Positions 1,137 to 15,949 of a stretch of DNA of 25,984 bases are shown here, one piece after another. The notes under the pieces were generated by a model. It did no database searches, had not been told where the DNA came from, and saw only the letters and a program-made list of their open reading frames with translations. A program made the translations under genes and the position numbers. The DNA is from a virus, in IMG/VR virus record IMGVR_UViG_3300023109_000118, positions 1 to 25,984 of that record, one strand, 5' to 3'. The stretch's first letter is position 1; each line of letters opens with the position of its first letter.

Positions 1137-1137
1137 T

Positions 1138-1895: not shown

Positions 1896-2098
1896 ATACT
1901 TTTTAATACATGCGCTGGAGGATTTCTCCGTGAGTATTGAAAAATAGGATGCTCTTTAATCACTAGCTCCCCAAACGGGTATAGCTTTGCGTGGTGCTCG
2001 TTGTTTTTAATTTTAACGCGATCCATTGTTTTGGCTACGTTCCAATGTTCTGGAGCGGTCCAATCGTGCGCTGATTGCTTAGGGGTATTAGAACTCAT
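1892..2098 (-). CDS. Small hypothetical protein encoded against the virion operon
   Basis: A 68-residue ORF is the only plausible gene between the 73-residue protein and the scaffold gene, and it runs opposite to every other gene of this arm. Its composition looks protein-like: balanced charge, two Trp, several His, and a central stretch VKIKNNEHHAKLYPFGELVI. Its stop overlaps the neighbouring + strand gene by four bases, the packing expected of a real gene. I recognise no family. Upstream on its own strand the DNA is very AT-rich, with a TTTACA-like box and a weak TACTTT box 17 bases apart, which would put the transcript start close to the ATG. No Shine-Dalgarno sequence is visible. It could be an accessory (moron-like) gene or, less likely, a chance ORF. 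Confidence 0.5.
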   Translation of the reverse strand: MSSNTPKQSAHDWTAPEHWNVAKTMDRVKIKNNEHHAKLYPFGELVIKEHPIFQYSRRNPPAHVLKSI

Positions 2099-2125
2099 AA
2101 ATAAAAGTATTATTTTTTTGTTTTT

Positions 2126-2155
2126 TTGTAAAGCAATAAAAATGACTGTTATAAT
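2126..2155 (+). promoter_or_regulatory. sigma70-type promoter with extended -10, upstream of scaffold
   Basis: TTGTAA at 2126-2131 is followed 18 bases later by a perfect TATAAT at 2150-2155, with the extended -10 TG at 2147-2148. Directly upstream lies a strongly T-rich tract (two runs of seven T around 2113-2127) that could act as an UP-like element. The predicted start near 2161 leaves a leader of about 40 bases before the scaffold ATG at 2203. This would drive scaffold and capsid. Confidence 0.65.
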
Positions 2156-2202
2156 GTCATTATCGCAAATCGCTCAGGCGTATAAAGAGAGCGTTGATAA
2201 CT

Positions 2203-3333
2203 ATGTCTAATGAAGTCCTAACACCCAACGCTGCGGGTGAACCAAGTCCAGCGGAACAGTCAGATAATCTTGCGTTTGGAATGTATGCACTCCATCGCAA
2301 AGGCGGTAATGGAAAGCCTTCTGGTGAACCTAAAGTGTTTACTAAGGAGATTAATACAGAACCCCAAGAATCGGAAGTTAAGGCAGAACAGGTGGAGGAG
2401 GAAACTGCTCCAGAGCCTCAAGACGAATCTAACGCGGAAATCGTCAACGAGGGTCAGCTTGAAAGCCAAGACGAAGAAGAAGTTCTTTCTAAAAGCGAGA
2501 TCGACCTAGAATCCATGTCAGAGGCCGAGCTTCGTGAACTAGCCGAAAAGCTAGGGAGCCGAGCAGTAGCTAGATTTGGTGAGCTTACCGCAAAGCGTAA
2601 GCAAGCCGAGGAACAGCTTAATGCCTTAAAGCAGGAAATGCAAAGTCGTGAAAGCCAAAAAGATCCCTTGGAAGTTAAGAAGGTTGAAAACAACCCCTTT
2701 TCTGACATCAATACCGTTGAAGATTTGCAGGCAAAAGCCAGCGAAATCGACGAAGCTATTGAATGGGCGGAAGACATTTTGTGGAACAACGACCATCTGG
2801 CAGCAGATGATGTTGTTGCATACAATGGCAACCAAGAGATCACAAAGGCTCAGGTGCGAAAGGTTTTGCGAGATTCCCAAAAATCCCGTAAGACGTTTTT
2901 GCCTGCACGATTGCAGGATTTACAGGCTAAAGAGCAACGCCTTAATATGAAGGCGCAGTTTTCTGAGGCTATTAAGTCCGAGCTTTCTTGGATTGATGGA
3001 GAGGATAATGATGTGCGAAAGCAGTTTGAATCCCTTCGCGAAAGCCCCTTGATTAAGGAGGCCGTAGAGAAGGTGCCTGATCTGGAACCGTATATGGAAT
3101 ATATGATAGCTCACGCTGCTAATTCCATTTATAATCGTAAGCCAGTTAATCAGACAAAGCCTAGCGCAAGAATCACTCCTCCGTCCATCTCGATTAGTTC
3201 CACTGCTCAAAGCGAGCAGCCAGAACCTCGCGCTGCTAAAGCAGTGAAAGATGTCCAACAACGATTCTCAACTTCAGGTGCTACACAGGACTTTATAGCT
3301 CTCCGCACTCTTCAACACTCTAAGCGTAAATAA
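2203..3333 (+). CDS. Capsid scaffolding protein
   Basis: This protein should guide procapsid assembly and leave before or during DNA packaging. It has 376 residues and shows the usual scaffold pattern: a low-complexity, very acidic Glu/Gln-rich N-terminal part (about residues 45-105), a charged coiled-coil stretch (about 105-150), further helical segments, and a basic C-terminus ending in HSKRK. It sits directly before the major capsid gene, the standard place for scaffold. A TTG codon three codons earlier could also start translation, but the ATG at 2203 is preferred because it is a standard start and AGAGAG, a weak ribosome site, lies about 11 bases upstream. No protease motif was seen. Confidence 0.8.
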   Translation: MSNEVLTPNAAGEPSPAEQSDNLAFGMYALHRKGGNGKPSGEPKVFTKEINTEPQESEVKAEQVEEETAPEPQDESNAEIVNEGQLESQDEEEVLSKSEIDLESMSEAELRELAEKLGSRAVARFGELTAKRKQAEEQLNALKQEMQSRESQKDPLEVKKVENNPFSDINTVEDLQAKASEIDEAIEWAEDILWNNDHLAADDVVAYNGNQEITKAQVRKVLRDSQKSRKTFLPARLQDLQAKEQRLNMKAQFSEAIKSELSWIDGEDNDVRKQFESLRESPLIKEAVEKVPDLEPYMEYMIAHAANSIYNRKPVNQTKPSARITPPSISISSTAQSEQPEPRAAKAVKDVQQRFSTSGATQDFIALRTLQHSKRK

Positions 3334-3341
3334 TTTTACTT

Positions 3342-3347
3342 TATAAT
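3342..3347 (+). promoter_or_regulatory. Perfect TATAAT box just before the capsid start
   Basis: TATAAT lies one base before the capsid ATG in the 15-base gap after the scaffold stop. There is no good -35 box at 16-18 bases. A transcript starting 6-7 bases downstream would begin inside the capsid gene, so this may be chance in AT-rich DNA. It is listed because it is a perfect hexamer in one of the few intergenic gaps. Confidence 0.25.
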
Positions 3348-3348
3348 C

Positions 3349-4338
3349 ATGGCTTTTTCAAATACCTACGACACCACTAATCCTGGTTCTGGGGTCTCCA
3401 ATCGTGAAGACCTCACCGACATCCTGACGATCCTCGCTCCCGAGGAGACTCCTGTTCTCTCGTCTGCTCCCAAAAGCAAAGCAACTGCCACCTTCGTTGA
3501 ATGGACGGTTGATTCGCTGGCTGCTCCTGTTACCACGGGTGTTGCCGAGGGTGCTGACGTTCCCGCGAATGGATTTACCGACAAGTTTAGTGGCCGCGCC
3601 CGTCTCGGCAACTACGTGCAAAAGTTCCGCCGTGACTTCATGGTTTCGGACCTGCAGGATGCCGTTGAGTCCGTTGGACCGGCTAAGATTGCTGAGGCCG
3701 AAGCTAAGTCTGCCCGCGAACTCAAGCGCGACGTAGAGGCTACCCTCTGCTCCGCAAATGATCGCACGGCTGAAAATGGTGCTGGCGTCGTTTATGGCCT
3801 GCGCGGCCTTGGTGGCTGGATTGATTCGGCTGGTCCGACTGACGTTCCTGCTGCTTACCGCACCCCTGCGGATTCCATCCACAGCAGTGGCTCCCTGACC
3901 GAAAGCGGCTTTAACGACCTCATCACGTCCATCTACCGGGTGACTGGCAGCACCAACAACCTCACCTTGGTTGCTGACACTGCTCTTCGTCGGGTTATTG
4001 CTGACTATGCTCGCACCTCTGGATCGACCAACGCGGTTTACCGTCAGGTTACCCAGACTGCTGATTCCAAGACCATCAAACTCTCTGTTGAGATGTATGA
4101 GTCTGATCACGGTATGGTGAGCATTGTTAACATGAACCCTGACTGCGCCCCTGACACGTCGAACAAGGACACGGGTTACCTCATCAATCCTGACTACTAC
4201 GGCGTTTCCGAGTTGATCGGTCTTGGTTCGACCCGCCTTCCGAATCAAGGTGGCGGTGAGCGTGGTTACGTTGACACCACCCTGTCGCTGTTGGTCAAGC
4301 ACCCTGGTGCTCACGGTAAGATCACCGCTATTGCGTAA
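3349..4338 (+). CDS. Major capsid protein, HK97 fold (DUF5309/SU10 type)
   Basis: This is the main shell protein, 329 residues. The N-terminus, with TNPG followed by REDLTDILTILAPEETPVLS and then a TFVEWTVDSLAAP segment, is the hallmark of the DUF5309 / SU10-like major capsid family. The rest fits an HK97 fold: E-loop region around residues 60-100, the long spine helix around 100-130 (DAVESVGPAKIAEAEAKSAR) and a P-domain ending in a conserved beta region. Codons are more GC-rich and uniform than in neighbouring genes, as often seen in highly expressed genes, and this gives long open frames on the other strand that are shadows. No Shine-Dalgarno sequence precedes the ATG. A stable hairpin follows the gene. 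Confidence 0.93.
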   Translation: MAFSNTYDTTNPGSGVSNREDLTDILTILAPEETPVLSSAPKSKATATFVEWTVDSLAAPVTTGVAEGADVPANGFTDKFSGRARLGNYVQKFRRDFMVSDLQDAVESVGPAKIAEAEAKSARELKRDVEATLCSANDRTAENGAGVVYGLRGLGGWIDSAGPTDVPAAYRTPADSIHSSGSLTESGFNDLITSIYRVTGSTNNLTLVADTALRRVIADYARTSGSTNAVYRQVTQTADSKTIKLSVEMYESDHGMVSIVNMNPDCAPDTSNKDTGYLINPDYYGVSELIGLGSTRLPNQGGGERGYVDTTLSLLVKHPGAHGKITAIA

Positions 4339-4358
4339 ATCTAACTACTAGACTTACA

Positions 4359-4367
4359 TGTTATAAT
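4359..4367 (+). promoter_or_regulatory. Extended -10 element after the capsid gene
   Basis: TGTTATAAT is a perfect extended -10 (TG at 4359-4360, TATAAT at 4362-4367) placed between the capsid stop and the hairpin at 4369. No convincing -35 box was found. A transcript from here would start within the hairpin, about 25 bases before the gene at 4398. Confidence 0.35.
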
Positions 4368-4368
4368 G

Positions 4369-4390
4369 GGGCTATCCTTCGGGGTAGCCC
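4369..4390 (+). terminator. Stable UUCG hairpin downstream of the capsid gene
   Basis: A nine-pair stem (GGGCTATCC with GGGTAGCCC, one G-T wobble) closes a TTCG tetraloop through a C-G pair, the extra-stable cUUCGg form. It is followed by TATTATT, a poor U-tract. This suggests a leaky terminator that lowers expression of genes after the capsid, comparable in position to the T7 terminator after gene 10. It lies only seven bases before the next ATG, so it could also act on translation or RNA stability. Confidence 0.6.
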
Positions 4391-4397
4391 TATTATT

Positions 4398-4706
4398 ATG
4401 CATTTAATTACGTCATTCCCTAAGTATCACGACGGAGAAATTAATCGCGCCTTGATGCGTGAGCTTACTACGGGACTAGAGTTTAAGAAAGAAATTGAAC
4501 GCTCTAAGGAGGCGCAGGCTGCGGAACAGGCAAAGGAGTTGGTAAATCAAAGAGAGGTGCCGGGTTTGGGTCGTTGCATTGGAGTAATTCCTGAGTGGGA
4601 GTTTTTTCGTATGCAGCAAAAATACGGAGCCAAAGAGGTCCACTCCAAGGAGTTTATGAAGTATTATCAAAAGAAGTTTCCACATCTTTCTCCTAACAAA
4701 ATATGA
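4398..4706 (+). CDS. Small conserved-looking phage protein between capsid and adaptor
   Basis: A 102-residue protein of unknown function. It has a short N-terminal segment MHLITSFPKYHDGEINRAL, a highly charged helical middle (about residues 25-55, Glu/Lys/Ala-rich, coiled-coil-like), and a C-terminal part with aromatic residues (IPEWEFFRMQQKYG, EFMKYYQKKFP). The general plan (charged helix, then a line such as P-x-x-x-F-x-R-x-x-x-K-x-G and a terminal FxxxxP) is one I associate with small phage proteins next to capsid genes, but I cannot give a function. Its stop overlaps the adaptor start (ATGA). Confidence 0.65.
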   Translation: MHLITSFPKYHDGEINRALMRELTTGLEFKKEIERSKEAQAAEQAKELVNQREVPGLGRCIGVIPEWEFFRMQQKYGAKEVHSKEFMKYYQKKFPHLSPNKI

Positions 4707-5554
4707 CCGACCGGACGTATAGTGACCTCTACTCCTTAATAAGCTCGCTTTCTGGTGTAAGCAACTTTAACCCTAGCGAAAAGGGGAGCATCCTTAACTT
4801 TGTAAATCGCAGGGCATATCAGGCTTATCGACAAAACAAAGTTTGGCCGCGCTACATTGTGGGTGCACAGGCCCGGCCAGCGGTTAACAATCTTATTGCA
4901 ACTACTTTTACGCCTACGCAATATACTATTGAAGCGGCGTCTCGCTCTGGCACGATAGTTACAATTAGGTGCAATACGACTGTTAATTTTGCCGAGGGCA
5001 TGTATGTTACTGTTGCCGATCTAGATGCATCTGCAAATGGCAGTCATCAAGTTTTGTCAATTAGCACCGGATCGGTGGACAACGACACGTTTACCTATGA
5101 GCTTTCCAGCGGAAGTGGTTCCCAAACCTATACTCCATCTGGAACAGTGATTGCTAATAGCGTTTCTGAGATTGATAGCTTTAATCGTATTTGGAGCAGC
5201 AACCCACTAAACATTAACTCTGCTATTGAGTATGAGTTTTGGGTTGATAGCGACGGTGCTAATGTAATACACAACAACACAGAACTTAGCGGATTTTGGG
5301 TGGGTTATTTGAAAAAGTGGGAAGGCCCATATTCAGATTCATCTACCAACATCCCGTCGGAGTTTTTTGAATATATAGCTCACGCAGCATATGCAGACTT
5401 CTTGCGGATGGATGGTCAAATTGACAAGGCCATTGCTGAAGAAAATGTAGCGCAGCAATACCTTTTGATAGAATTGGATAAAGCAGAAACTCAGAGGAAC
5501 AATAACGCTTTATATCGTCGAATTTCAACTTACGTTTCTCGCCAATCTCGTTAA
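4703..5554 (+). CDS. Tail adaptor (tail tubular protein A / gp11-like)
   Basis: This protein of 283 residues should form the dodecameric adaptor between portal and nozzle. The N-terminal helices (residues 1-55, with NFVNRRAYQAYRQNKVWPR) and the C-terminal helical part (residues 200-283, with FFEYIAHAAYADFLRMDGQIDKA and a long terminal helix) match the helical-bundle plan of T7 gp11-type adaptors. Between them, roughly residues 74-151, is a beta-rich Ser/Thr/Gly insert (RSGTIVTIRC, FAEGMYVTVAD, SHQVLSIS, DTFTYELSS) that looks like an added immunoglobulin-like or small beta-sandwich domain. The start overlaps the previous stop (ATGA), and no ribosome site is seen, so translation is probably coupled. 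Confidence 0.75.
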   Translation: MTDRTYSDLYSLISSLSGVSNFNPSEKGSILNFVNRRAYQAYRQNKVWPRYIVGAQARPAVNNLIATTFTPTQYTIEAASRSGTIVTIRCNTTVNFAEGMYVTVADLDASANGSHQVLSISTGSVDNDTFTYELSSGSGSQTYTPSGTVIANSVSEIDSFNRIWSSNPLNINSAIEYEFWVDSDGANVIHNNTELSGFWVGYLKKWEGPYSDSSTNIPSEFFEYIAHAAYADFLRMDGQIDKAIAEENVAQQYLLIELDKAETQRNNNALYRRISTYVSRQSR

Positions 5555-5558
5555 TACT

Positions 5559-5882
5559 ATGCCTAATACTTTTTCAGTTAATCTTTATCCTGTTCCCACT
5601 GAAGGTGGAACGGATGAACGTTTAGTAGTTTCTTCAACCGTTGTTGAGTTTGCAACAACTTGGTATGACGAAAATACGAAGTTTGTTTATGTTGATGTTC
5701 AGGGTAACGGGAACAATAGCATTATGGTTACCTTCGATGGGTCAGACCCCTCTGCGTCTAACGGCCATGAGTTTGTGGCTGGATTCCACGGCTTTTGGTC
5801 TGCTCGCCAGGCCGATTCGGCTAAGATGTTTCACGGTGGCGGATCAACTATTGCCGTGCAGGCTTCACCCTTTACTGTTTAA
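5559..5882 (+). CDS. Small beta-rich virion protein, paralogue 1
   Basis: 107 residues, mostly beta by pattern, with no cysteine. Its core V-x-V-Q...IMVTFDGSDPSASNGHEFVAGFHGFW resembles the core of the next gene's product (VLVQVN..IRVTMDGTTDPTASLGYRMPAG..VYW), so the two appear to be tandem paralogues. The motif VTxDGxxPxAxxGxxxxAGxxxxW also occurs, from general knowledge, in small proteins of many environmental phages without assigned function. Placed after the adaptor and before the fibre, it could be a tail or head surface protein; this is inference. It begins four bases after the adaptor stop. Confidence 0.65.
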   Translation: MPNTFSVNLYPVPTEGGTDERLVVSSTVVEFATTWYDENTKFVYVDVQGNGNNSIMVTFDGSDPSASNGHEFVAGFHGFWSARQADSAKMFHGGGSTIAVQASPFTV

Positions 5883-5886
5883 TACC

Positions 5887-6213
5887 ATGCCTAACGCAAG
5901 AATTGTTAATACGCCATCTCAGGCAATCCCCCAAAACGCCACCACCCACCGGCAGAACACAATCAGTTCTACGGCGGAGCAGGTGTTGGATTGGACATTA
6001 AACTCTGGCACGACGCATGTGCTTGTTCAGGTTAATGATGCTGCAATTCGTGTAACGATGGATGGCACCACCGATCCGACCGCTTCACTTGGTTATCGTA
6101 TGCCCGCAGGAAGTTCTGTTTATTGGACGCGGGAGATGGTTTCCAAGGTTAAGGCTATTCGCGAAGCAAGCACGGATGCTGTGCTTGAAATGCAAGAGTT
6201 GAACTATTTGTAA
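5887..6213 (+). CDS. Small beta-rich virion protein, paralogue 2
   Basis: 108 residues starting from the ATG four bases after the previous stop. The frame is open further upstream inside the previous gene, but that part is a shadow. It begins MPNARIVN, echoing MPNTFSVN of the preceding protein, and shares its central VTxDGxxDPTASxGxxxxAGxxxxW segment (about residues 56-80). After that come more helical charged residues (MVSKVKAIREAST) and a divergent C-terminus. Function is unknown. Tandem duplication followed by divergence is the simplest explanation. Confidence 0.65.
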   Translation: MPNARIVNTPSQAIPQNATTHRQNTISSTAEQVLDWTLNSGTTHVLVQVNDAAIRVTMDGTTDPTASLGYRMPAGSSVYWTREMVSKVKAIREASTDAVLEMQELNYL

Positions 6214-6214
6214 A

Positions 6215-8182
6215 ATGGACGTTTTTAAGACCCTCATTCTGGATACACCAGACTCCCTGAATAATATTAGTGGCGTATTGCCCATTGTTAATGGTGGAAC
6301 GGGGGCTGACAATGCGTCTGATGCACGAGATAACCTTGGTCTTGGCAACTCGGCAACTTTGGACGTAGGCACCACCGCAGGGACGGTCGCAGCAGGCGAC
6401 GACTCTCGGTTCTTGGGCGGCGACATAGTCGGCCCGGCGTCATCCACCGACAATGCTGTTGTGCGATACGACGGCACGACCGGGAAACTGGTTCAAAACT
6501 CAGGGGTAGCGATAGATGATAGCGGCAACGTTAATTTAGCCGACGACTCGTCACTCAACTGGAGCACCGCGCCGGGTCGCCCTTACATTGTTGGCAATAA
6601 AGCTAATGACCTAATAAAACTAGGCACACCAACGGGAGGAGATCTTCTAAATCTTGTCGGTGCGAAAGTCGGCGTGGGGACGTCGTCACCAGCACGAGCG
6701 TTAACCGTAGCAGCAACCGAAGCGGTTGCATCATTAATGGAGGGCACGAGCACATCGGGGACGTTCCTCGATTTTACTAATACGAATTACTACTCTAACG
6801 GCGTCGCACGACTTGGACTCGACTCTTCGGGCAATATGCAGATTGGCGCAGTAGGAGCTGGTGGCGATTTACTGCTACTAACCGGTAGCACAACAAAGGT
6901 GTCTGTTCTCAACAACGGCAACGTCGGCATCGGCACGACGGCACCCGGGAGTAAGTTGTCCATTTCTGGAACCGCAGCTGCTGGTGGTTTATACATTGAA
7001 GATAGTTCTGCTTCTGGATTTTCCCCTGCAATTATCAATATAGGAAAACGATCCGATAATAATGCATCCCAAGGATTTAGCGGAAAATTAGCACTTGTAA
7101 AAAATAGAACAGATGCTGCTATTGGTTCTTCAAATACGCTAGGCACAGTTTATTTTGGCGGAAATCACACAAATGGAACATTGGCGAATGTAGATTATGC
7201 CGCATCTATGTCGGGGATATCTGAAGGAACTTTTAATTCCGCTTCTGATATGCCGACAGGTTTAGTATTTTATACCGGATCAACGGGTAATGGTGGCTTA
7301 GATAGTTTGACAACGGCTGGAAGCGAACGGATGCGGATCGACAGCTCGGGCAACGTCGGCATTGGCACGGCGTCACCGGCAGCAAAGCTCAGCGTCACCA
7401 ACACGGCCAACGATGCCGGGGCTGTTGCGTTGCTACTTGAGAACGCAGACAGCAACGCTGGGATCGGGTCGCGCCTTGCTTGGCGGCTAGATAATCTTGC
7501 AAACGAATGGGGCTACATCAATGTAAGCCGAGTTGGTGGAGGCGCGACGGCGCAAATGGACTTTGCCGTAAACGGCGCAGCATACAGCGGCGCAGCCTCA
7601 ACCGTGATGTCGCTGGACTCCACCGGCATTCAGATGGCAACCACCAGTCAAATCAGTTTTTTTAACACCGGTTATTTTGTTCGTGCGTCTACTGGGTTAG
7701 AAGTGCAGTCGGCTGATTCTACACGGTTCCTAACTAATGGAGCCAACGAACGGATGCGGATCGACAACTCCGGCAACGTCGGCATTGGCCTGACGGCACC
7801 TGCATACCAGCTCCAATTGAGCACCGACTCCGCCGCAAAACCATCAACCAACACTTGGACCATTGCGTCCGACGCTCGTATTAAAACCGAAACCGGTGAA
7901 TACACAAAAGGGCTCGACGCAGTGCTTTCACTGCGCCCCGTCACCTACCGATACAACGGTAAGGCCGGTATGATCGATGACGGCGAGGATAAGATTTCCA
8001 TCATTGCTCAAGAGGCAATCACCGCATTCCCTGAGTGCGTTGGCAGCTACATGGTTAAGCTAGAGGAGGACGATGAGCAAGAAACCGAAGTGCTGAACTG
8101 GAATGGACACGCCTTAACCTTCGCGCTTGTCAACTCGATCAAGGAACTCACGGCCCGCCTTGAGGCGTTGGAAAATAACTAA
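6215..8182 (+). CDS. Tail fibre with C-terminal S74 intramolecular chaperone
   Basis: A 655-residue modular fibre. Residues 1-110 carry phage-tail modules ([49 protein letters not shown]). The middle holds at least four NVGIGT-P type repeats, two preceded by ERMRIDxSGNVGIG. From about residue 550 comes a peptidase S74 / endosialidase chaperone domain: TIASDARIK (S552-D553 is the expected self-cleavage site), then GLDAVLSLRPVTYRYNG, ISIIAQEAITAFP and a terminal coiled coil NSIKELTARLEALE. Such domains trimerise the fibre and are then cut off. GC content changes sharply inside the gene, suggesting recombination of modules. It presumably binds a host surface receptor. Four bases separate its promoter-bearing downstream gap from the stop region. 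Confidence 0.88.
   Translation: MDVFKTLILDTPDSLNNISGVLPIVNGGTGADNASDARDNLGLGNSATLDVGTTAGTVAAGDDSRFLGGDIVGPASSTDNAVVRYDGTTGKLVQNSGVAIDDSGNVNLADDSSLNWSTAPGRPYIVGNKANDLIKLGTPTGGDLLNLVGAKVGVGTSSPARALTVAATEAVASLMEGTSTSGTFLDFTNTNYYSNGVARLGLDSSGNMQIGAVGAGGDLLLLTGSTTKVSVLNNGNVGIGTTAPGSKLSISGTAAAGGLYIEDSSASGFSPAIINIGKRSDNNASQGFSGKLALVKNRTDAAIGSSNTLGTVYFGGNHTNGTLANVDYAASMSGISEGTFNSASDMPTGLVFYTGSTGNGGLDSLTTAGSERMRIDSSGNVGIGTASPAAKLSVTNTANDAGAVALLLENADSNAGIGSRLAWRLDNLANEWGYINVSRVGGGATAQMDFAVNGAAYSGAASTVMSLDSTGIQMATTSQISFFNTGYFVRASTGLEVQSADSTRFLTNGANERMRIDNSGNVGIGLTAPAYQLQLSTDSAAKPSTNTWTIASDARIKTETGEYTKGLDAVLSLRPVTYRYNGKAGMIDDGEDKISIIAQEAITAFPECVGSYMVKLEEDDEQETEVLNWNGHALTFALVNSIKELTARLEALENN
7324..7366 (+). 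repeat. 43-base direct repeat in the fibre gene, copy 1
   Basis: Encodes ERMRIDSSGNVGIG. It matches the copy at 7747-7789 at 41 of 43 bases by hand alignment. That is higher DNA identity than the other, older protein-level repeats in the same gene, which suggests recent duplication or gene conversion. It could serve as a recombination point for swapping fibre segments. Confidence 0.85.
7747..7789 (+). repeat. 43-base direct repeat in the fibre gene, copy 2
   Basis: Second copy of the repeat at 7324-7366, differing at two bases and encoding ERMRIDNSGNVGIG. Between the copies lie 380 bases coding for one fibre segment, which a recombination event between the copies would remove or replace in frame (423 bases copy to copy, a multiple of three). 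Confidence 0.85.
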
Positions 8183-8212
8183 TTGACAACCACCGTTAAG
8201 TTGAGTTATAAA
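8183..8212 (+). promoter_or_regulatory. Consensus sigma70 promoter after the fibre gene
   Basis: A perfect TTGACA (8183-8188) and TATAAA (8207-8212), 18 bases apart, fill the 38-base gap between the fibre stop and the ATG at 8221. The predicted start, 6-8 bases after the -10, falls at about 8218-8220, so the transcript would be leaderless or nearly so. It would drive the two tiny genes and probably the lysis and basic-protein genes after them. The first 10 bases (TTGACAACCA) also begin the minus-strand promoter near 25015. Confidence 0.75.
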
Positions 8213-8220
8213 TTGTTTGT

Positions 8221-8364
8221 ATGACTATTCAAGAAAAACTTAATCAACTATACATTGCCACGCGCATTGCCGCTCTAAGCGCGGACCAGCACGCAGCCTT
8301 ACAGCAGCATGCAAAGGATATCTTGGAGGCCCTTAAAGAGCCAGAACCTGAAACCGAAGAATAA
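8221..8364 (+). CDS. 47-residue hypothetical protein
   Basis: A short ORF too small for many gene callers: MTIQEKLNQLYIATRIAALS, then SADQHAALQQHAKDILEALK and an acidic end PEPETEE. It is predicted to be helical with an amphipathic pattern and could oligomerise. It directly follows a consensus promoter, whose start site falls at its ATG, and ends one base before the next ATG (TAAAATG). No family is recognised. Support comes from position, codon pattern and tight spacing. Confidence 0.6.
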   Translation: MTIQEKLNQLYIATRIAALSADQHAALQQHAKDILEALKEPEPETEE

Positions 8365-8365
8365 A

Positions 8366-8461
8366 ATGCCATACGGAAAAGGAACATACGGAAACAAAGT
8401 TGGTCGCCCATCCAAGGCCAAGGGTAAAAAGCGAACAATGCCTAGAAAAAAATGTAAGTGA
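8366..8461 (+). CDS. 31-residue basic peptide (MPYGKGTYG family-like)
   Basis: MPYGKGTYGNKVGRPSKAKG followed by a Lys/Arg-rich tail with one Cys near the end. Very short proteins with an MP-x-GKGTYG start and a GRP...KK tail occur in many environmental phages from general knowledge, always without known function. The GRPxK segment resembles an AT-hook, a minor-groove DNA-binding motif, so DNA binding is possible. It is one of four small, very basic proteins encoded between the fibre and nozzle genes. Confidence 0.65.
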   Translation: MPYGKGTYGNKVGRPSKAKGKKRTMPRKKCK

Positions 8462-8476
8462 GTGGTTGTAAACATG

Positions 8477-8485
8477 TGTTAAAAT
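8477..8485 (+). promoter_or_regulatory. Extended -10 promoter for the holin gene
   Basis: TGTTAAAAT (TG at 8477-8478, TAAAAT at 8480-8485) ends five bases before the holin ATG, so the transcript start would coincide with the start codon. No clear -35 is present, as is usual for extended -10 promoters. The identical nine bases lie in the same position before the gene at 13717. Confidence 0.55.
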
Positions 8486-8490
8486 AACTC

Positions 8491-8934
8491 ATGTTTACGT
8501 TTCTTTCTAGTGCGGCGGGTGGGTCTATTTTAGGCGGCATTTTTTCAGTTGTTCAAAAGATAGTAGACGCAAAGTCTAAGGCTTGGGAAACTGAGCTTGA
8601 GATTAAGAAGATGGAATCTATTTCTCGCCTCAAGGTTACCGAGGCCGAGTTTAAGAGTTTCGACTCAAGTCTAAAAAGCGATAAAGAGTCGGTTGAGATT
8701 CCAGAAAACACTCCTTTGTGGGTGATTTCTACACGGGTAATGGTGGATGCCTTTAGAGCGTTTACTCGTCCAGGGCTAACATGGGCTATGGTTATTTCCC
8801 TGATTCTATTTATTGCTGCGGGATTTGTAGGGGAGGCCGCAGTTGCTGTGATTCTGGGTGACTTTGTGTTTGCTACATCAACAGCAGTAATGTGGTGGTT
8901 TGGATCACGTCCATTGCAAAGGACCGCCAAGTGA
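8491..8934 (+). CDS. Holin, three-segment type (GTA_holin_3TM-like)
   Basis: 147 residues. A hydrophobic N-terminal segment (about 8-24, with GGSILGGIFSVV), a charged helical stretch (27-70), and two adjacent membrane segments (about 97-116 and 117-137) ending in WWFGSRP match the 3TM holin family (PF11351 in my memory), whose members typically end in an aromatic-F-GSR motif. It would form lesions in the inner membrane at the end of infection and let the lysozyme encoded at 1138 reach the wall. It starts right at a predicted transcription start, and its stop overlaps the next gene's GTG. Confidence 0.75.
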   Translation: MFTFLSSAAGGSILGGIFSVVQKIVDAKSKAWETELEIKKMESISRLKVTEAEFKSFDSSLKSDKESVEIPENTPLWVISTRVMVDAFRAFTRPGLTWAMVISLILFIAAGFVGEAAVAVILGDFVFATSTAVMWWFGSRPLQRTAK

Positions 8935-9146
8935 TTCAGCTATTTGATACTATCAGGATTGGCTTGCTAAACGCCCTTAGCTGGGCATCAACACTTGCAG
9001 TCCTTCAACTGGCTGCTGACCTTTTGCAAGTGGCTGCGTTGCTTGGATCAATTACGGTTAGTATCTTTTCTGTCCGTTGGATTATGAAACAGTCTCAAAA
9101 CCTTGATAAACTTAACAAGGAGAAGAGCGTCAATAAGGCCAAATAA
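8931..9146 (+). CDS. Small membrane protein, possible second holin or antiholin
   Basis: 71 residues starting at a GTG that overlaps the holin stop (GTGA), with AAAGGA eight bases upstream, one of the few good ribosome sites in this arm. The frame is open upstream inside the holin gene, but the overlap and ribosome site favour GTG 8931. One long or two short hydrophobic segments (residues 8-50) are followed by a Lys/Asn/Ser-rich cytoplasmic tail ending KSVNKAK. Size, charge and position suggest a class II/III-like holin, an antiholin, or a spanin-related partner. The sequence alone cannot decide. Confidence 0.65.
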   Translation: MIQLFDTIRIGLLNALSWASTLAVLQLAADLLQVAALLGSITVSIFSVRWIMKQSQNLDKLNKEKSVNKAK

Positions 9147-9173
9147 AGCCATTTTAAGGCGATACCTATACCA

Positions 9174-9422
9174 ATGCCTAAGAACCCTAGAGATTTGCCC
9201 TGTAATAGCCCTAGAAGGGAAGTTAAGGGCGGTAAGAAGTTTGTCGTCAAGGCTTGTCAGGACGGAAAAGAGAAAGTGGTGCGCTTTGGCGATGCCAATA
9301 TGACCATTAAGAAGAGCCAGCCAGCTCGCAAGAAGAGCTATTGCGCTAGGTCTGGTGGCATCAAGGGTAAAAGCAACAAGCTGTCCGCCAACTATTGGAG
9401 TCGGCGTGCTTGGAACTGTTAA
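9174..9422 (+). CDS. Small basic protein with FGDxNMTIKK and SxANYWSRxxWxC motifs
   Basis: 82 residues, strongly basic, with four Cys. The segment KVVRFGDANMTIKKSQPARKKSYCARSGG, followed by a Ser/Asn-rich link and ANYWSRRAWNC, matches a widespread small phage protein type (KFGD-x-NM-x-I-K-x...RRKSF-x-ARH...YWS-C-x-W) that I recognise but whose function is unknown. The paired Cys and Trp residues suggest a small metal- or nucleic-acid-binding fold. It is the first of three adjacent basic proteins. A weak AAGG lies about 12 bases upstream of the ATG. Confidence 0.7.
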   Translation: MPKNPRDLPCNSPRREVKGGKKFVVKACQDGKEKVVRFGDANMTIKKSQPARKKSYCARSGGIKGKSNKLSANYWSRRAWNC

Positions 9423-9426
9423 CAAA

Positions 9427-9615
9427 ATGCCTGCTAAAAAATCTACTGTAAACTCTGCTGGCGTATATACAAAGCCAACAATGCGGAAGCGACGGTTTCA
9501 GTCGATTAAGTCTGGTGGTAAGGGCGGACGCCCAGGCCAGTGGTCGGCTCGTAAGGCCCAAATGCTGGCCAAGCAATACAAAGCCAAGGGCGGCGGATAT
9601 AAGACTTCTCGATGA
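9427..9615 (+). CDS. Small basic protein with GQWSARKAQMLAKQYKxxGGGY motif
   Basis: 62 residues from the ATG at 9427, four bases after the previous stop. The open frame extends upstream, but that part overlaps the previous gene and is a shadow. The motif PGQWSARKAQMLAKQYKAKG belongs to a very common phage and algal-virus small protein group, sometimes annotated with DUF5872-type domains; my family name is from memory and tentative. Roughly one third of residues are Lys or Arg, so nucleic-acid binding is likely. Its stop overlaps the next start (ATGA). Confidence 0.7.
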   Translation: MPAKKSTVNSAGVYTKPTMRKRRFQSIKSGGKGGRPGQWSARKAQMLAKQYKAKGGGYKTSR

Positions 9616-9848
9616 AAGCACAGCAAAAGAGTCTTGCCGACTGGACAAAGCAGAAGTGGCGCACCAACTCGGGAAAGCCCAGCCTTAAAACCGGAGAACG
9701 GTATTTGCCAGAAGCCGCATGGAAGTCTTTGACCTCCGCAGAAAAAGCCGCAACCAATAGGGCCAAGCGCAAGGGCATGAAGAAGGGCAAGCAGTTTGTT
9801 AAGCAGCCCAAGTCTATTGCCAAAAAAACGGCTAAATACCGGAAGTAG
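9612..9848 (+). CDS. Small basic DUF5872-like protein
   Basis: 78 residues. The line SLADWTKQKWRTNSGKPSLKTGERYLPEAA, then SLTSAEKAATNRAKRKG and KQFVKQPKSIAKKTAKYRK, is characteristic of the abundant family often labelled DUF5872 in phages of aquatic bacteria and in algal viruses; the label is from memory. It is highly basic, with no Cys. It is translationally coupled to the preceding basic protein (ATGA overlap), and in other genomes these two motifs are often adjacent or fused, which supports a shared role. A DNA- or RNA-binding function is inferred only from charge. Confidence 0.75.
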   Translation: MKAQQKSLADWTKQKWRTNSGKPSLKTGERYLPEAAWKSLTSAEKAATNRAKRKGMKKGKQFVKQPKSIAKKTAKYRK

Positions 9849-9864
9849 CCCTTGTGGCATAGGC

Positions 9865-9870
9865 TATACT
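9865..9870 (+). promoter_or_regulatory. -10-like box placed for a leaderless nozzle transcript
   Basis: TATACT ends six bases before the nozzle ATG in the 28-base gap after the last basic-protein gene, so the expected transcript start falls on the ATG. No good -35 or TG extension is present. The spacing equals that before 13717, which is why it is listed. Confidence 0.4.
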
Positions 9871-9876
9871 AAATGA

Positions 9877-11856
9877 ATGCCTCGGTATAGCAATTATGGC
9901 TCGCTTGATAACCCCATCGTTGATGAGGGAGACTTTTCGTTTTCTCGAATAAACGCACGGCTGCGACCCGATCAGCTCAGTCCATCCGAGGTGGCGATGT
10001 CCTCCAACGGACGTATGGACATTAATGGGGCGTGGCAAACCCGCAAGGGACATCAGCACTTTGGGTCTTCGCTTGTTACTGACGCATTGGCCCTTACTTT
10101 GCCATTTACCCTTGATGACGCTGGAACTCCCCCAGTCCTTGATGATGATGTCGTTAACGCTGCATACGGTTCGTGTTTGTTTTCCGACCCATCATCTAAC
10201 AATGAGGAGTATATTGCGATTGCGGCAAACTCAAAGGTTTTTCTTGTAAACCTTGTAGATGGAGTTGTTACTGACATTTCCTATCCTTCAGGCGTTACGA
10301 TTTCCTCAAAGGTTAATATGCTGCAAGCATTTAACTACATTTTTATTTTTAGGGACGGCGAAACGACCTTGCAGTGGGATGGAGACCTAACTGGAACTCC
10401 GGCGTTTGAGTTAGTAGGAAACGGTGACTATACCCAGCCTTTGGTGTATAGCACTTCTGGGAACACAGCAATTTCGGGTGGAGTGGTTACCGTCACTGAG
10501 TCCTCTGGCCACGATATTTCAGAGAACGATTTAGTTAAGATTATTTCTCGCGGCGACACCAACCTCAATGAGCTATCTGAGTATCGGGTGTTTTATGCTG
10601 ACTCCGACGCCGACCCCGGCCCACCTACTACGTTTAAGTTTTATGCTGACGCGGACGACATCGCTGGCGCGTCGGTGGTTTTAAGCAAACCAATGTCTGT
10701 AGGTGGCGGGTTTTCCCATATGCCTGCGCCGCCGTGGGCTATTTATCACCAGCGTAGGCTGTGGATGCCATTCCTTTATACGACATCAGGAGCCTCTGGG
10801 TCTCCCACAATTGAATCTCGCAATATTACGGATGAGATTATTGCTTCCGACATTCTGGATCAAAACACCTACGATCAGATCTATGGCAACTATCGCATTG
10901 CGTCTGGTGGTGCGGATCGTGTTGTGGCAATTCAGCCGTTTTCCGAGGACAACTTAGTTGTATTCAATCGGAATACCATCCACTTGATTCGTGGCGTAAC
11001 TGGGGCATTGGAGGAAACGGTTGTGCAGGAAATCACGCGAGAGGTTGGATGTTTGGCGCGTAAGTCCGTTGTGCAGGTTGGTAATCAAATTCTTTTTCTG
11101 TCGGATAACGGCGTGTATGCTGTTAAGTTCGAGGATTTATATAACCTGCGTGGTGCATCCATTCCCCTTTCGGAGTCTATTAATCCAATTATTAAGAGAA
11201 TTAATAAAGACTACGCTAGTAACTCGGTAGCCATTTATCACGACAACAGATATTATATTTCTGTCCCACTGGACGATTCTACCGTTAATAATACTATATT
11301 AGTTTATAACTTTTTAAATAATGGGTGGGAGTCTGTTGACACTACCCAAGGGGAAGGCTGGGATATTGAAAACTTAATTCGAGCGGGAGCTGGTTCATTA
11401 AATAAGTTGTATGCAATTAACTCTTTTGGAGGAATACACGTTTTAGAAGACCGGGAGGACGACAACGATTTTCTGGTTACTAGTATTGGAGTGTCTGCTT
11501 CTATCCGTAAGATTCCTTCTTATGTAACCACTCGACAATATACGGGTGGCACTATGGACAGAAAGAGATACAACTCTTTTGAGATTCAAGCAGAAAGCTC
11601 TGAGACTAACGATTCGGACATTGATATTACGTTTGAGGCAGAAAATCCAGATTCCGTAAACACAATGGATTCTTTTTCTGACCTTTTGGGGAACACCTTA
11701 GCCGTTGGGGAGGATGCTTCCGTGCGTGGCCGCATTGGCAATATTCGTGGGTATAGCGGCCAGTTTACGCTAGCTCCTAGAATTGGCCGACCCAAGGTAA
11801 GATCGCTGAAAGTTTCTTCCCAGCTCACCGACCTAAATATCAGTTCTAAAGAATGA
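9877..11856 (+). CDS. Tail nozzle (tail tubular protein B / gp12-like)
   Basis: 659 residues. It begins with the pattern of podovirus nozzle proteins: [36 protein letters not shown], that is, 'points of contact, then a list of parameters with an R-x-G mark'. Repeated beta segments follow ([90 protein letters not shown]), consistent with a beta-propeller-like platform as in T7 gp12 or P22 gp10. Residues about 196-272 form a beta insert resembling the one in the adaptor at 4922-5155. The protein should extend the tail tube and carry fibres. Its stop overlaps the tailspike start (ATGA). Confidence 0.72.
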
Positions 11857-13676
11857 GTGATATTAAAGCAGGTTTTGTTTGGTCTGATAAGGCTGAAAAT
11901 TTTGCCAACAATAAGGCAATGGCTTTGCGTCTTAATAAGACTATTGGAGAGGCAGCGGTTAATCTTAATGAAGTGCTGCCAGATCAATCAGGGCAGGCAG
12001 GAAAGTTTCTTAAAACTGACGGAACAGATGTTCTTTGGGACACGGCTTCTGGCGGAGGTTCAACGCCAGTGGGTCCAGCCGGTGGCGACCTTACTGGAAC
12101 ATATCCCGACCCAACGCTAGTGACTACAGGTGTTTCGGCTGGATCTTATGGTAGTGCATCACAAGTAGGAGGTTTCGCCGTAGATGCCAAGGGCCGTCTT
12201 ACGGCGGCGAGCAATACGCCTATTGCTATTGCGAACACGGCGGTCAGCGGGCTTGGCAACTCTTCGACGCTTGACGTTGGCACTACTGCTGGCACGGTTG
12301 CGGCAGGAGACGACTCGCGACTTAGTGATGCACGCACGCCGACCGGAACTGCTAGTGGAGATTTAGGAGGAAGCTATCCAAGCCCAACGGTTACTAGCGG
12401 CACTAACCACGGACATACATGGGGGCAAATTACTCAAAAGCAAGACCTGTCTTGGATTAACGTAGCTGAATACCCATACAATGCTGACAAAACTGGGACC
12501 AACGACGCAACCTCTGCTATTAACGCAGCAATAACCGCTGGGTTGGCAAATGAAAAATCTGTAATATTTTTCCCAGCAGGCACATATAAGATTAGTTCAC
12601 AGATTAATCACACGATTGGAGCCTCAAAAGATTTAGTTATTGCTGGGGCGGGTGAAAATGTTGTTATTTTGGATTTTGTAACTACTGGAAATGCGGGGTT
12701 AAAGTTTACACTAACATCAACAACAAGTAGCACAGGCAATTACGAGCCGGACTCGTCTGTAGAAATTAGGGATTTAACCTTATATGCTGGAGCGGTTGGC
12801 GGGAAAAACGCAATGGGAACCGCTATTACAATTATTCAGGACAATCAAATTAACACCACGCACAGAGTAACAGGCCCACTTATAAGGCGTGTTGCAGCTC
12901 ATGGCCCTGACGGAACCGTAACCGGAACTGGAGAAAATGTTCCATACTGGGAATACGGCGCATATATTAAATGGTGTTGGAATACTGAAATTAGCGATTG
13001 TTTTTTTTCGGGGCTTGAGGGTGATAATGAATATGAATCGGACTTTGGAATTTTGCTGCACGGGCGTTGTGTGAACTCTATGATTACTAGAACGCAATGC
13101 AATTGGTTTGACGTTGCTGTCCAATCAAGCCCGTTTGCACTTACTAGTGATCAACAAAACAATGAAGGGTTAGTTGTAGATACTTTTTATGCAGTTCCTT
13201 GCCGCGAAGGAATTGTGGTTACTGCAAACACTAGTGCAACTCAATCGCAAAGAGCAGTAAATATATTTATTTCTAATTGTCATTTTGACGCTAGAGATCC
13301 TCGCGTTTATGACCCTGGTCTATATCAGACTAATACAAACATAAGGATGGAAAATGTTTGGCAAGTTATGATTCAAAGTAACTTGTTTATAATGAACGGA
13401 AATAATTATACATTAGACTTTAATAATTGCAAAACTGTTGTTGTATCAAATAACACTTTTGATAGCTCTACTGTGGCGGCTGTTCTTTTTGATGGAACCT
13501 CGATTGCAAACATTGTTCAAGGCAATGCGTTTCAAGCAAATAATGTTCCTCAAGATATTGTTTTGGGAGCTAGCACTTCACACAATAAGGTTTATGGAAA
13601 TGCTAGCGTAGGCCGCACATCTATTATAGTGACCAATAGCGGAACAAATAATTTGGTTGGCAGCTCTGGCAATTAA
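11853..13676 (+). CDS. Tailspike with pectate-lyase-like beta-helix
   Basis: 607 residues. Residues 1-68 form an N-terminal attachment part. Residues 70-190 contain collagen-like or linker modules ([24 protein letters not shown] and [20 protein letters not shown]). From about 197 a right-handed beta-helix begins, with [28 protein letters not shown] and [13 protein letters not shown], the classic start of pectate-lyase-3 type phage spikes, followed by many NxxF/NNTF turns to the end. It probably binds or cleaves a surface polysaccharide; no catalytic residues can be assigned by eye. The N-terminal modules are GC-rich (12241-12300 is 37/60 G+C), while the helix is AT-rich (13321-13380 is 17/60), suggesting receptor-domain exchange. 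Confidence 0.82.
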
Positions 13677-13681
13677 CCACC

Positions 13682-13710
13682 TTTTCAACAATAACTAATT
13701 GTGTTAAAAT
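13682..13710 (+). promoter_or_regulatory. Promoter for a leaderless fibre-like transcript
   Basis: TTTTCA (13682-13687), 17 bases, then TAAAAT (13705-13710) with the extended TG at 13702-13703 fill the gap after the tailspike stop. The ATG at 13717 lies six bases past the -10, at the predicted transcript start. The nine bases TGTTAAAAT repeat the holin promoter. Confidence 0.6.
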
Positions 13711-13716
13711 ACTAAC

Positions 13717-14391
13717 ATGGCAATTCTCCAAACAGGAACCATCTACGCTGACGGTGATCAGGTTACATCAACGAACCTTAATGCAGCAGTTAATGCTGCT
13801 ACGTTTCAGTCTGGAGCAGTAGATGGTGATACAACCCAGCTTTCCGGTAGTGGGCAAATTATCGTAAAAGATAAAGGAATTACTGCAGCTAAACTAGAAA
13901 CTGCCGCTAACGGACAGCTATTTATTGGTAATGGCAGTGGGTTTAGTTTAAGTTCACTAACCGCCGGATCTGGAATTGGACTTGTGGTTGGCGCAGGCAG
14001 CATTGAGATTACGTCCACGGGATCAATGGGCGGCAGCAGCGGTAGCACCGACAATGCCATCATACGAGCAAATGGCGACCTCGGAAATACAATCCAATCA
14101 TCTAGCATTACCATTGATGACAGTAACAACATTGCTGGAGCTAACAACATTACGGCTGGAAACGTTGTTAATGTTACTTCCCCAAATGGCTATCAAGTAA
14201 ACGGCACTAAGGTGCTAGGTGCTCAGGGGGCCACAATAAACAGCCTTAGTGCTGGTTACATTGACACGGATTTTGAAAGTGAAACGGACCACACGGACCC
14301 ACAGTTAGTAGCAGGCGCATTTAACATTACAAATGCAAGAATTAACTTAATCCTTGCAGCCCTTCGCACCCATGGCATTATTGCTACCTAA
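13717..14391 (+). CDS. Fibre-like tail protein
   Basis: 224 residues, Gly/Ser/Thr/Asn-rich, with no Cys. It shares a module with the S74 fibre (SGSTDNAIIRANGDLGNTIQ...ITIDDSNN at residues 108-137). It also has ITAAKLETAANGQLFIGNGSGFSLSSLTAG and a C-terminal end NARINLILAALRTHGIIAT that is common at the end of small phage tail or baseplate-associated proteins. Beta-strand repeats dominate. It could be a short fibre, a fibre connector, or a second receptor-binding protein. The N-terminal DGDQVTSTNLNAAVNAATF segment is typical of phage tail-associated proteins. It is preceded by its own extended -10 promoter. Confidence 0.65.
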   Translation: MAILQTGTIYADGDQVTSTNLNAAVNAATFQSGAVDGDTTQLSGSGQIIVKDKGITAAKLETAANGQLFIGNGSGFSLSSLTAGSGIGLVVGAGSIEITSTGSMGGSSGSTDNAIIRANGDLGNTIQSSSITIDDSNNIAGANNITAGNVVNVTSPNGYQVNGTKVLGAQGATINSLSAGYIDTDFESETDHTDPQLVAGAFNITNARINLILAALRTHGIIAT

Positions 14392-14411
14392 TGTCGGCAA
14401 TATCTAAGGCA

Positions 14412-14441
14412 TTTAAACATTATTTCTTCTAGACATATTAT
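14412..14441 (+). promoter_or_regulatory. Weak promoter-like sequence before the internal virion genes
   Basis: TTTAAA (14412-14417) and TATTAT (14436-14441), 18 bases apart, lie in the 74-base gap before the GNAT-like gene, leaving about 18 bases of leader. Both boxes are imperfect and the DNA is AT-rich, so chance is possible. Confidence 0.25.
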
Positions 14442-14465
14442 TGCCTACAAACTAAACGTTACTTA

Positions 14466-14834
14466 ATGAGTCTTCTTCCTAAAGTTCGAAAGATCAAGGA
14501 TCTGGAAACCATGCAGCGCGTCCTTGCTGCCGCAAGGTCTGATAACGATGGTTGCTCCTACCCGTCCCACTACGTTGAAAAGAACGGGGAGATCGTAGGG
14601 TGTGCATCTGTGGCAAGCGTTCCTGTCCTAATGCTATGGCATGATTCAAAGAAGATTGGACCAAAGGAATCTATGCAGCTCCAGAACACTTACGAAACTC
14701 TTATAGAGGAAAAGGGTGTCCCCGGATATATTATTATGTGCAATAAAGAGTCCCCATATCACGGCCACATGCAAAAGTTTGGATATCAACCAGTCTGGGA
14801 AACCGACATTTTCGTAAAGGAACTTAATTTATAA
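14466..14834 (+). CDS. GNAT-fold-like virion protein (T7 gp13-like position)
   Basis: 122 residues. It reads like a short acetyltransferase-fold protein: an N-terminal helix (VRKIKDLETMQRVLAAAR), a strand-turn ENGEIVGCASVASVPVLML, a long helix, and a C-terminal strand-helix-strand with HMQKFGYQPVWETDIFVKEL, like the terminal MxKxGF motif of GNAT enzymes. A clear acetyl-CoA loop (Q/R-x-x-G-x-G/A) is not seen, so catalysis is doubtful. T7 gp13, also GNAT-like, lies in the same place before the internal core genes, supporting a role in core assembly or injection. It overlaps the next gene by one base (TAATG). Confidence 0.6.
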   Translation: MSLLPKVRKIKDLETMQRVLAAARSDNDGCSYPSHYVEKNGEIVGCASVASVPVLMLWHDSKKIGPKESMQLQNTYETLIEEKGVPGYIIMCNKESPYHGHMQKFGYQPVWETDIFVKELNL

Positions 14835-15949
14835 TGTGCACAAAAGTCAGAATGCCAAAGCCTCCCGAGGCTCCAACTCCAGTTGATCCTGGGAAATCAT
14901 CTTTGGATTTTATTCGAGCAATGGCCGATCCTGCGCTGCAACGTCAGCTTTTGCAGGCCGAGCAAACCTATCGCCCTGAATACACGGAGCTAGAGCTTGC
15001 GGACATTAACACTTTGCTGCGAGGCACAGAAGACCAAGCAGGACTGCTGGACATTCAAGACGAGGCTTCTCGTCGCGCTGCTGGTATTGGGCAGGAACTA
15101 ACAACGGCCCAACGAGAAGCAGACATTGCTGACGTTGAGGCTTTGGGTGGTAGGGCTACGGCGGCTTTGCGTTCCGCTGATCCAATGCAGCAGGCTTTGC
15201 TTGAGCAAATTAATCAAATGTCTCAAGACCAGTTTGCTCGATCTGGCCGTCTTACGCCTGAGCAAATGCGTAACGCGCAGCAGCAGGCACGTTTGGCTGG
15301 GGCGTCTCGTGGGCGCGTAGGAGATCAGGGCACGGTTGCTAGCGAAATATTGAACCGTGAACAGGCTTTGCGAAACCGTCGCCTTGAGGCGTTGCAAACC
15401 GGACAGTTGGCATTTGGCATGAATCAAGCCACTGCCGCCGACCCCTTTCAGGCTATCCTTGGTCGTCCCGCACAAGCCCCGGGCATGGGCATGGCGTCCT
15501 CACAGTTTGCTGCTGGACTGGCTGGACAACAGCTTGGTCCTAACCTGTTTGATCCCAACGCAGGCATTAACCTCGGTCTCCAGAATCAGGCTAACTTGTC
15601 AAATTATCAAAGCAGCATTTACGGCTCACAGGCTGGGTTTGCCGGTGCTCAAGCGCAGGCTAGAGGTGCTATGATTGGAGGACTAGCAAGTGGTCTAGGA
15701 AGTGTTATTGGCGGGAAGCTTGGATGCTGGGTGGCACGCGAAGTCTTTGGCAATGAGAATCCAATGTGGGTTTTGTTCCGGCAGTGGTTGTTTGAAAATT
15801 CACCTAATTGGTTCTTTAATCTCTATATTAAACACGGCGAAAAGTTTGCTCAGTTCATTTCGGACAAGCCGCTTATTAAGCGGATTATCCGCAAATGGAT
15901 GACAAGTATTGTTGAGCGCAAGTTTACCCCTAACCCCACTTTTATCTAA
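14834..15949 (+). CDS. Internal virion protein A (small ejection protein)
   Basis: 371 residues. The N-terminus is Pro-rich (KPPEAPTPVDPG). Residues 25-200 are charged helices rich in Gln, Ala and Arg. Residues 200-296 are Gly/Ala/Gln-rich and end in a hydrophobic glycine segment (MIGGLASGLGSVIGG). Residues 298-356 form a separate, aromatic-rich domain, starting CWVAREVFG and running through NPMWVLFRQWLF, SPNWFFNLYIKHGEKFAQFI, KPLIKR and IIRKWM. I recognise that end domain from many environmental phage proteins of unknown function. Position between the gp13-like protein and two larger Ala/Gln-rich proteins suggests a DNA-ejection apparatus component. The start overlaps the previous stop (TAATG). 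Confidence 0.65.
   Translation: MCTKVRMPKPPEAPTPVDPGKSSLDFIRAMADPALQRQLLQAEQTYRPEYTELELADINTLLRGTEDQAGLLDIQDEASRRAAGIGQELTTAQREADIADVEALGGRATAALRSADPMQQALLEQINQMSQDQFARSGRLTPEQMRNAQQQARLAGASRGRVGDQGTVASEILNREQALRNRRLEALQTGQLAFGMNQATAADPFQAILGRPAQAPGMGMASSQFAAGLAGQQLGPNLFDPNAGINLGLQNQANLSNYQSSIYGSQAGFAGAQAQARGAMIGGLASGLGSVIGGKLGCWVAREVFGNENPMWVLFRQWLFENSPNWFFNLYIKHGEKFAQFISDKPLIKRIIRKWMTSIVERKFTPNPTFI

Follow-up and report, generated by a model that had tools for sequence, protein, structure and literature searches.

Conserved -10 boxes beside start codons suggest leaderless late genes in an uncultured phage group

Results

Boxes next to four late gene starts

The virus record IMGVR_UViG_3300023109_000118, 25,984 bases long, analysed over its whole length (hereafter the window) and possibly a fragment, contains in its late arm four genes with a -10 box so close to the ATG that their transcripts may begin on or beside the start codon (Table 1; genes are named by the first base of their ATG). 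Searches of PHROG and Pfam with the 13717 product and of PHROG with the 8221 open reading frame (ORF) gave no match. Re-reading the coordinates, the four boxes and their distances to the ATG agreed with the original prediction, as did its nine bases common to two of them, TGTTAAAAT. For 8221, it had named TATAAA (8207-8212), which lies 18 bases behind TTGACA (8183-8188) and 8 bases ahead of the ATG; location and distance are right, but the sixth base is not T, and the hexamer scored in the counts below is TAAATT (8209-8214), two bases further on, at -12. Duplex energies with an E. coli-type anti-Shine-Dalgarno sequence (the host's own may differ) were -2.2, +0.9, -3.2 and +0.9 kcal/mol upstream of 8221, 8491, 9877 and 13717, respectively. 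Thus, none of the four genes has a clear Shine-Dalgarno (SD) site, as had been claimed.

Table 1. Positions of the genes and predicted signals discussed in the text.
Feature	Position	Strand	Remark
Extended -10 TGTTATAAT, putative scaffold-capsid unit	2147..2155	+	one of two 6/6 extended -10 boxes
Conserved RNA element at predicted 5' end	2164..2193	+	covarying stem 2171-2175 with 2189-2193; probable pseudoknot stem 2164-2166 with 2178-2180
Putative scaffold gene	2203..3333	+	named for its place ahead of the capsid gene, following the annotation of phage Venkman
Major capsid protein gene	3349..4338	+	SU10_MCP family (PF17236, E 1e-46)
Extended -10 TGTTATAAT	4359..4367	+	overlaps the terminator-like hairpin after the capsid gene
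Terminator-like hairpin	4363..4396	+	ends just ahead of ATG 4398
Gene after hairpin	4398..4706	+	
Possible promoter TTGACA-N18-TATAAA (or TAAATT)	8183..8212	+	predicted start 0-2 bases before ATG 8221
Short ORF, 47 amino acids	8221..8364	+	predicted near-leaderless start
Extended -10 TGTTAAAAT	8477..8485	+	hexamer TAAAAT 8480-8485, 5 bases ahead of ATG 8491
Gene, 147 amino acids	8491..8934	+	predicted leaderless; phrog_6637 (family with no assigned function; holin-like only by inference)
-10 TATACT	9865..9870	+	6 bases ahead of ATG 9877
Virion gene	9877..11856	+	predicted leaderless; head-closure/tail-like matches
Extended -10 TGTTAAAAT	13702..13710	+	hexamer TAAAAT 13705-13710, 6 bases ahead of ATG 13717
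Late-arm gene, 224 amino acids	13717..14391	+	predicted leaderless

A -10 box was scored as TANNNT starting between -14 and -11 from the ATG, irrespective of a preceding TG. By this measure, 6 of 22 plus-strand starts in the window have one (1674, 3349, 8221, 8491, 9877 and 13717), compared with a shuffle expectation of 2.38; 43 of 2000 dinucleotide shuffles equalled or exceeded this count. A scan of window positions 1-20000 for the sigma70 consensus returned 35 sites versus 25.3 (standard deviation 4.9) in shuffles; the 13717 box is on its list, those of 8221, 8491 and 9877 are absent from it. Taken alone, the window is weak evidence.

Conservation of the boxes in related phages

A viral collection was scanned with three proteins of the window, yielding 77, 80 and 33 loci (the second list being the best 80 of 449). 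Orthologous upstream regions were extracted, reduced to distinct sequences and clustered at <70% identity across 40 bases, and the number of clusters with a box was judged against 1000 shuffles. This alignment of upstream regions across relatives, the check proposed with the original prediction, revealed a -10 box conserved over diverged clusters for 9877 and 13717. Ahead of 9877, the box was present in 56 of 63 orthologous upstream regions and in 21 of 27 clusters (shuffle mean 2.17, maximum 7), with the matches starting at -12 in 15 clusters, at -11 in four and at -13 in two. Ahead of 13717, it was found in 30 of 44 upstream regions and 12 of 21 clusters (shuffle mean 2.76, maximum 9); all 12 cluster matches begin exactly at -12 and carry TG at -15/-14, outside the filter. 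Six different hexamers occur at each of the two starts, their inner bases varying. Such constancy of position combined with variable inner bases is the pattern of a -10 promoter element (an extended one in 13717), the +1 of which would be the A of the ATG or an adjoining base. Upstream gaps of 13717 measure 12-40 bases in clusters with the box and 1-19 in those without, five of the nine misses having a gap of 3 or less. Within 11853-13716, the sequence before the 13717 promoter varies among close relatives and the promoter block is constant, as if the preceding spike gene had been exchanged.

For the other two starts, the alignment sustained the prediction in part (8491) or weakly (8221). The extended -10 of 8491 was present in 9 of 29 orthologous upstream regions, all of them with TG and all from one close clade. 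The box of 8221 scored in 5 of 37, all close relatives and all as TAAATT; TTGACA is present in all five, and TATAAA in four, with TGTAAA in the fifth. Upstream gaps were 6 or less in three of the five misses of 8491 and in nine of the 11 of 8221. Two further starts, those of mcp and g5559, had the box in 3 of 17 clusters (454 of 1000 shuffles as high) and in 3 of 12 (83 of 1000), respectively. TANNNT near -12 was also raised ahead of g15949 in relatives (6 of 14 clusters, a count that 8 of 1000 shuffles reached or exceeded), the window's own g15949 being without it.

From the fetched loci, 638 non-redundant ORFs were taken; as these were called mechanically from the first ATG, some starts are wrong. 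TGNTANNNT at -13 to -11 occurred 22 times among them versus 4.7 expected, and 15 times versus 3.0 where the gap measured 15 bases or more (n = 290); at gaps below 5 bases (n = 186), it occurred 0 times versus 0.7, too small a number to weigh. TANNNT at -13 to -11 precedes 7 of 30 ORFs in the window, 1 of 40 in T7, 0 of 34 in Venkman and 1 of 30 in C75C1. SD sites were counted in 4 of 30 ORFs of the window, 25 of 40 of T7, 10 of 34 in part of Venkman and 6 of 30 in part of C75C1; across the group they number 52 of 638 (8.2%, background 3.6%). The phage group is, therefore, SD-poor compared with T7.

A predicted promoter against the terminator-like hairpin behind the capsid gene

When both strands of the window were searched, two 6/6 extended -10 boxes were found, with hexamers at 2150 and 4362, and each would start a transcript with a leader. 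The second lies against the hairpin behind the capsid gene. With upstream regions clustered here at <75% identity, an extended -10 at -50 to -15 of the gene after the capsid gene was present in 16 of 17 clusters and 42 of 43 upstream regions, compared with 13 of 456 upstream regions of other genes (five promoter-bearing genes excluded). In the 16 clusters, the stem overlaps the hexamer or starts at most 3 bases past it, and between 4 and 16 stem pairs have their 5' base ahead of the predicted +1. Mean folding energy was -23.9 kcal/mol for the 60 upstream bases versus -5.2 (0 to -11.2) from the predicted +1, a shorter stretch. Given these stem pairs and the drop in energy, RNA from the capsid gene could terminate at the hairpin, whereas RNA begun at the 4362 promoter mostly could not. 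In two clusters (L141 and L148), much of the hairpin stays after the predicted +1, and C75C1 has the hairpin after its capsid gene but lacks the extended -10.

A predicted structured leader ahead of the putative scaffold gene

The 2150 hexamer precedes the putative scaffold gene, the product of which had no match of its own in family searches. Out of 136 loci with a capsid start, seven were too short, seven did not match the leader pattern and three (two distinct rows, L143 and L155) were dropped as false, leaving 119 loci in 53 distinct rows; one contig may supply several loci. Among the seven loci without a pattern match, the element is visible by eye in L148, and Venkman did not match the pattern; many of the matches listed by the two pattern scans are due to chance. 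A conserved CGC or CGAC follows the end of the hexamer at a distance of 7 or 8 bases in 51 of the 53 rows, and TGn is present in 44. Because of this spacing, the RNA should begin at the leader element, the commonest form of which is CGC-AA-arm-GGCG-loop-arm-AUG.

The inner stem of this element covaries. When its arms were swapped among 22 distinct versions, the cognate pairing sum beat all 5000 permutations, although only 6 of the 22 arms paired best of all with their cognate. Because MAFFT, applied to 36 elements, did not keep the covarying stem in register (and offered two never-varying, hence uninformative, pairs of the other stem), an in-register subset of 10 sequences was counted instead: 88.9% of cells pair, 9 cells are altered on both sides versus 3.6 in shuffles, and covariation scores 0.368 versus 0.174, neither value being reached by any of 500 shuffles. 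Pairs with double changes (3 versus 2.3; 180 of 500 as high) and further pair types (8 versus 6.7; 84 of 500) do not stand out. The other stem reads CGCA/GGCG in 39 rows, CGAC/GTCG in 8, CGCC/GGCG in 5 and CGCA/AGCG in 1. As this amounts to one compensated change in one clade, a pseudoknot is likely but unproven, and the element is probably of the H type. Rfam had no family match at the element at E <= 1 (window, L173 and L050). The element might serve to control scaffold synthesis or to protect the 5' end of the RNA.

Type of phage and possible host

The original prediction had taken the virion to be T7-like, a label that does not hold. The capsid protein belongs to SU10_MCP, no T7 capsid family was listed for it in the family search, and the matches of the 9877 product are to virion, head-closure and tail families. 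The RNA polymerase family PF00940 was found neither in the window nor in 19 relatives, records that may be fragments (the T7 control was positive). Sigma70_r4 and Sigma70_r2 likewise had no match over cut-off in the 19 relatives. Four weak Sigma70_r4-like matches under cut-off were seen in small ORFs of 81-134 amino acids from four relatives (L257-L260), possibly a regulator. As neither the polymerase nor the sigma-factor domains were found, reading of the late genes by host RNA polymerase, which had been called unusual for such a phage, is unsurprising once the T7 framing is given up. Other phage transcription factors may act on the late genes as well.

Among deposited phages, C75C1, whose record states no host and whose name turned up in a single, unrelated paper of the literature searched, has the nearest capsid protein at 63% identity; the other 173 records are below 60% and belong mostly to Pseudomonas and Vibrio phages. 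The phages with this capsid family include the LUZ24-type Pseudomonas phages (Bruynoghevirus); the window phage differs from all of them by these capsid identities, and likeness of its gene order to the LUZ24 type was judged by eye against Venkman and C75C1. For the LUZ24-like phage UFV-P2, two promoters were predicted in late modules, and its description states that transcription of genes of this kind usually relies on viral transcription factors (PMC3890496).

Two related phage contigs (L173 and L174) from one genome scan were binned with metagenome-assembled genomes (MAGs) of Opitutae and Rickettsiales, one each. As binning is not proof of host, these are weak hints, and no host is claimed. 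In ~607 kb of the Opitutae MAG, SD sites precede 32 of 423 ORFs, with a weak signal of adjacent -10 boxes (plain TANNNT 21 versus 18.4 expected, -10-like subset 7 versus 2.4, TGn 5 versus 1.1). In the Rickettsiales MAG, SD sites precede 30 of 262 ORFs, the -10-like subset numbers 13 versus 7.8, and TGn 1 versus 1.7. On a second Opitutae MAG contig (L243, contig 56 of G019) lies a gene whose product is distantly related (29%) to the capsid protein, and a related phage contig carries a tRNA gene (L050:20916-20987), possibly of use in host assignment.

Discussion

From the box sequences, their spacing, the TG of 13717 and 8491, their conservation and the lack of SD sites, we infer the transcript starts, the use of host sigma70 and leaderless translation. 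The late arm would be transcribed, at least partly, from several short units by the host's RNA polymerase and housekeeping sigma factor, and some of these units would carry extended -10 promoters. At 9877 and 13717, a -10 hexamer that spans roughly -12 to -7, counted from the A of the ATG, would place the transcript start on or beside the start codon, and ribosomes that accept a 5'-terminal AUG would translate the mRNA as leaderless. In its proposed form, with such starts at 9877 and 13717, perhaps at 8491 and less surely at 8221, we regard this reading of the late arm as quite probable. Leaderless initiation appears well supported for 9877 and 13717, on which the best explanation rests, plausible for 8491 in its close clade, and weak for 8221. 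The broader claim of a late programme built on sigma70 and leaderless translation thus survives in part: some genes would be leaderless, but transcripts from two other late promoters would have leaders, and many genes directly follow the preceding one.

As many gaps are short, read-through from upstream genes probably adds mRNA. It may even supply most of it, the boxes being real but minor promoters, with leaderless transcripts topping up the supply. This alternative, which is compatible with leaderless initiation at 9877 and 13717, comes close to an even chance without reaching it. It agrees with the short gaps ahead of 13717 and with the relatives without the box, in which the gene often lies directly after its neighbour. 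In addition, a terminator scan listed no plus-strand terminator in the gaps before 8221, 8491, 9877 and 13717, although the same scan also misses the hairpin at 4363. Minor importance is harder to reconcile with a box so strongly conserved, at nearly constant spacing, among relatives that have diverged.

Several observations weigh against promoters adjoining the ATG. TG is missing in 13 of the 21 cluster matches of 9877 (present in eight), the upstream gap of this gene fails to separate matches (-1 to 279) from misses (5 to 180), and its box is absent from C75C1, the nearest deposited phage. SD sites, few as they are, exceed background in the group. Plain TANNNT at -13 to -11 is raised in abutting genes, too (17 versus 7.1, n = 186), and is therefore partly compositional or derived from stop codons. 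At the cluster level, neither 8491 (2 of 7; 186 of 1000 shuffles as high) nor 8221 (1 of 12; 607 of 1000) is significant, and because the clusters are related by descent, the shuffle counts overstate independence.

The signal in abutting genes, the missing TG and the paucity of SD sites would also suit an A/U-rich element near -12 that binds ribosomes and so acts in translation, not as a promoter, in genes read from upstream promoters. We deem this improbable, as the 13717 motif is an extended -10 with TG in every cluster match, and TGnTANNNT recurs far from the ATG, before the hairpin (16 of 17 clusters) and the scaffold leader (44 of 53 rows). Chance boxes in AT-rich gaps, a notion to which the 43 window shuffles and the cluster counts of 8491 and 8221 lend something, and which may suffice for 8221, are very unlikely as a general account, since none of 1000 shuffles reached the counts observed for 9877 or 13717.

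Promoters adjoining the start codons of 9877 and 13717 might belong to a more elaborate arrangement. Tentatively, the late programme could be made up of units that are self-contained and read with host sigma70, their RNA 5' ends tailored in three ways. Virion genes would be leaderless; the gene after the capsid gene would be restarted from a promoter in or against the capsid terminator, leaving the full terminator only in read-through RNA; and the scaffold-capsid mRNA would open with a new H-type pseudoknot, through which scaffold synthesis would be controlled, perhaps when free scaffold protein binds to it. If confirmed, the terminator-overlapping promoter and the 5'-terminal RNA element would be a compact means of setting the amounts of capsid and tail proteins. 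The leaderless genes would make a concrete case of a phage late programme leaning on leaderless translation, with start sites predicted to the base in a large uncultured group, and such starts may be misjudged by gene-finding programs that look for SD sites. Among the top-listed open-access literature matches, which are not proof of absence from print, there was no report of this programme or its elements.

The leader pseudoknot of T4 gene 32 is a structured 5' leader of a phage gene, as the scaffold leader would be; likened by description, the latter differs in lying at the predicted very 5' end and before a putative scaffold gene. In lambda, a leaderless gene is cI, a repressor gene. The genes considered here are, unlike cI, late-arm genes, and their starts are conserved over a clade. 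What the window phage would share with lambda, in which leaderless initiation was found (PMC3160421), is a phage mRNA starting at its own AUG, and phage transcripts are described as often leaderless (PMC5312081). TANNNT ~12 bp before the start is a mark of leaderless genes in bacteria (PMC3160421), where adjacent -10 boxes are established as such markers (PMC3160421, PMC12340547). The leaderless genes of Deinococcus-Thermus and Actinobacteria described there resemble 9877 and 13717 in having a -10 hexamer ~12 bp before the start and no SD site; those described here differ in being virion genes of an uncultured phage group, in the TG of 13717 and in the mixed layouts of the late promoters. Leaderless starts are thus known from bacteria; here they seem to be conserved in the structural genes of a phage group beside two unusual late promoters, and the novelty lies more in this broader collection of late promoters.

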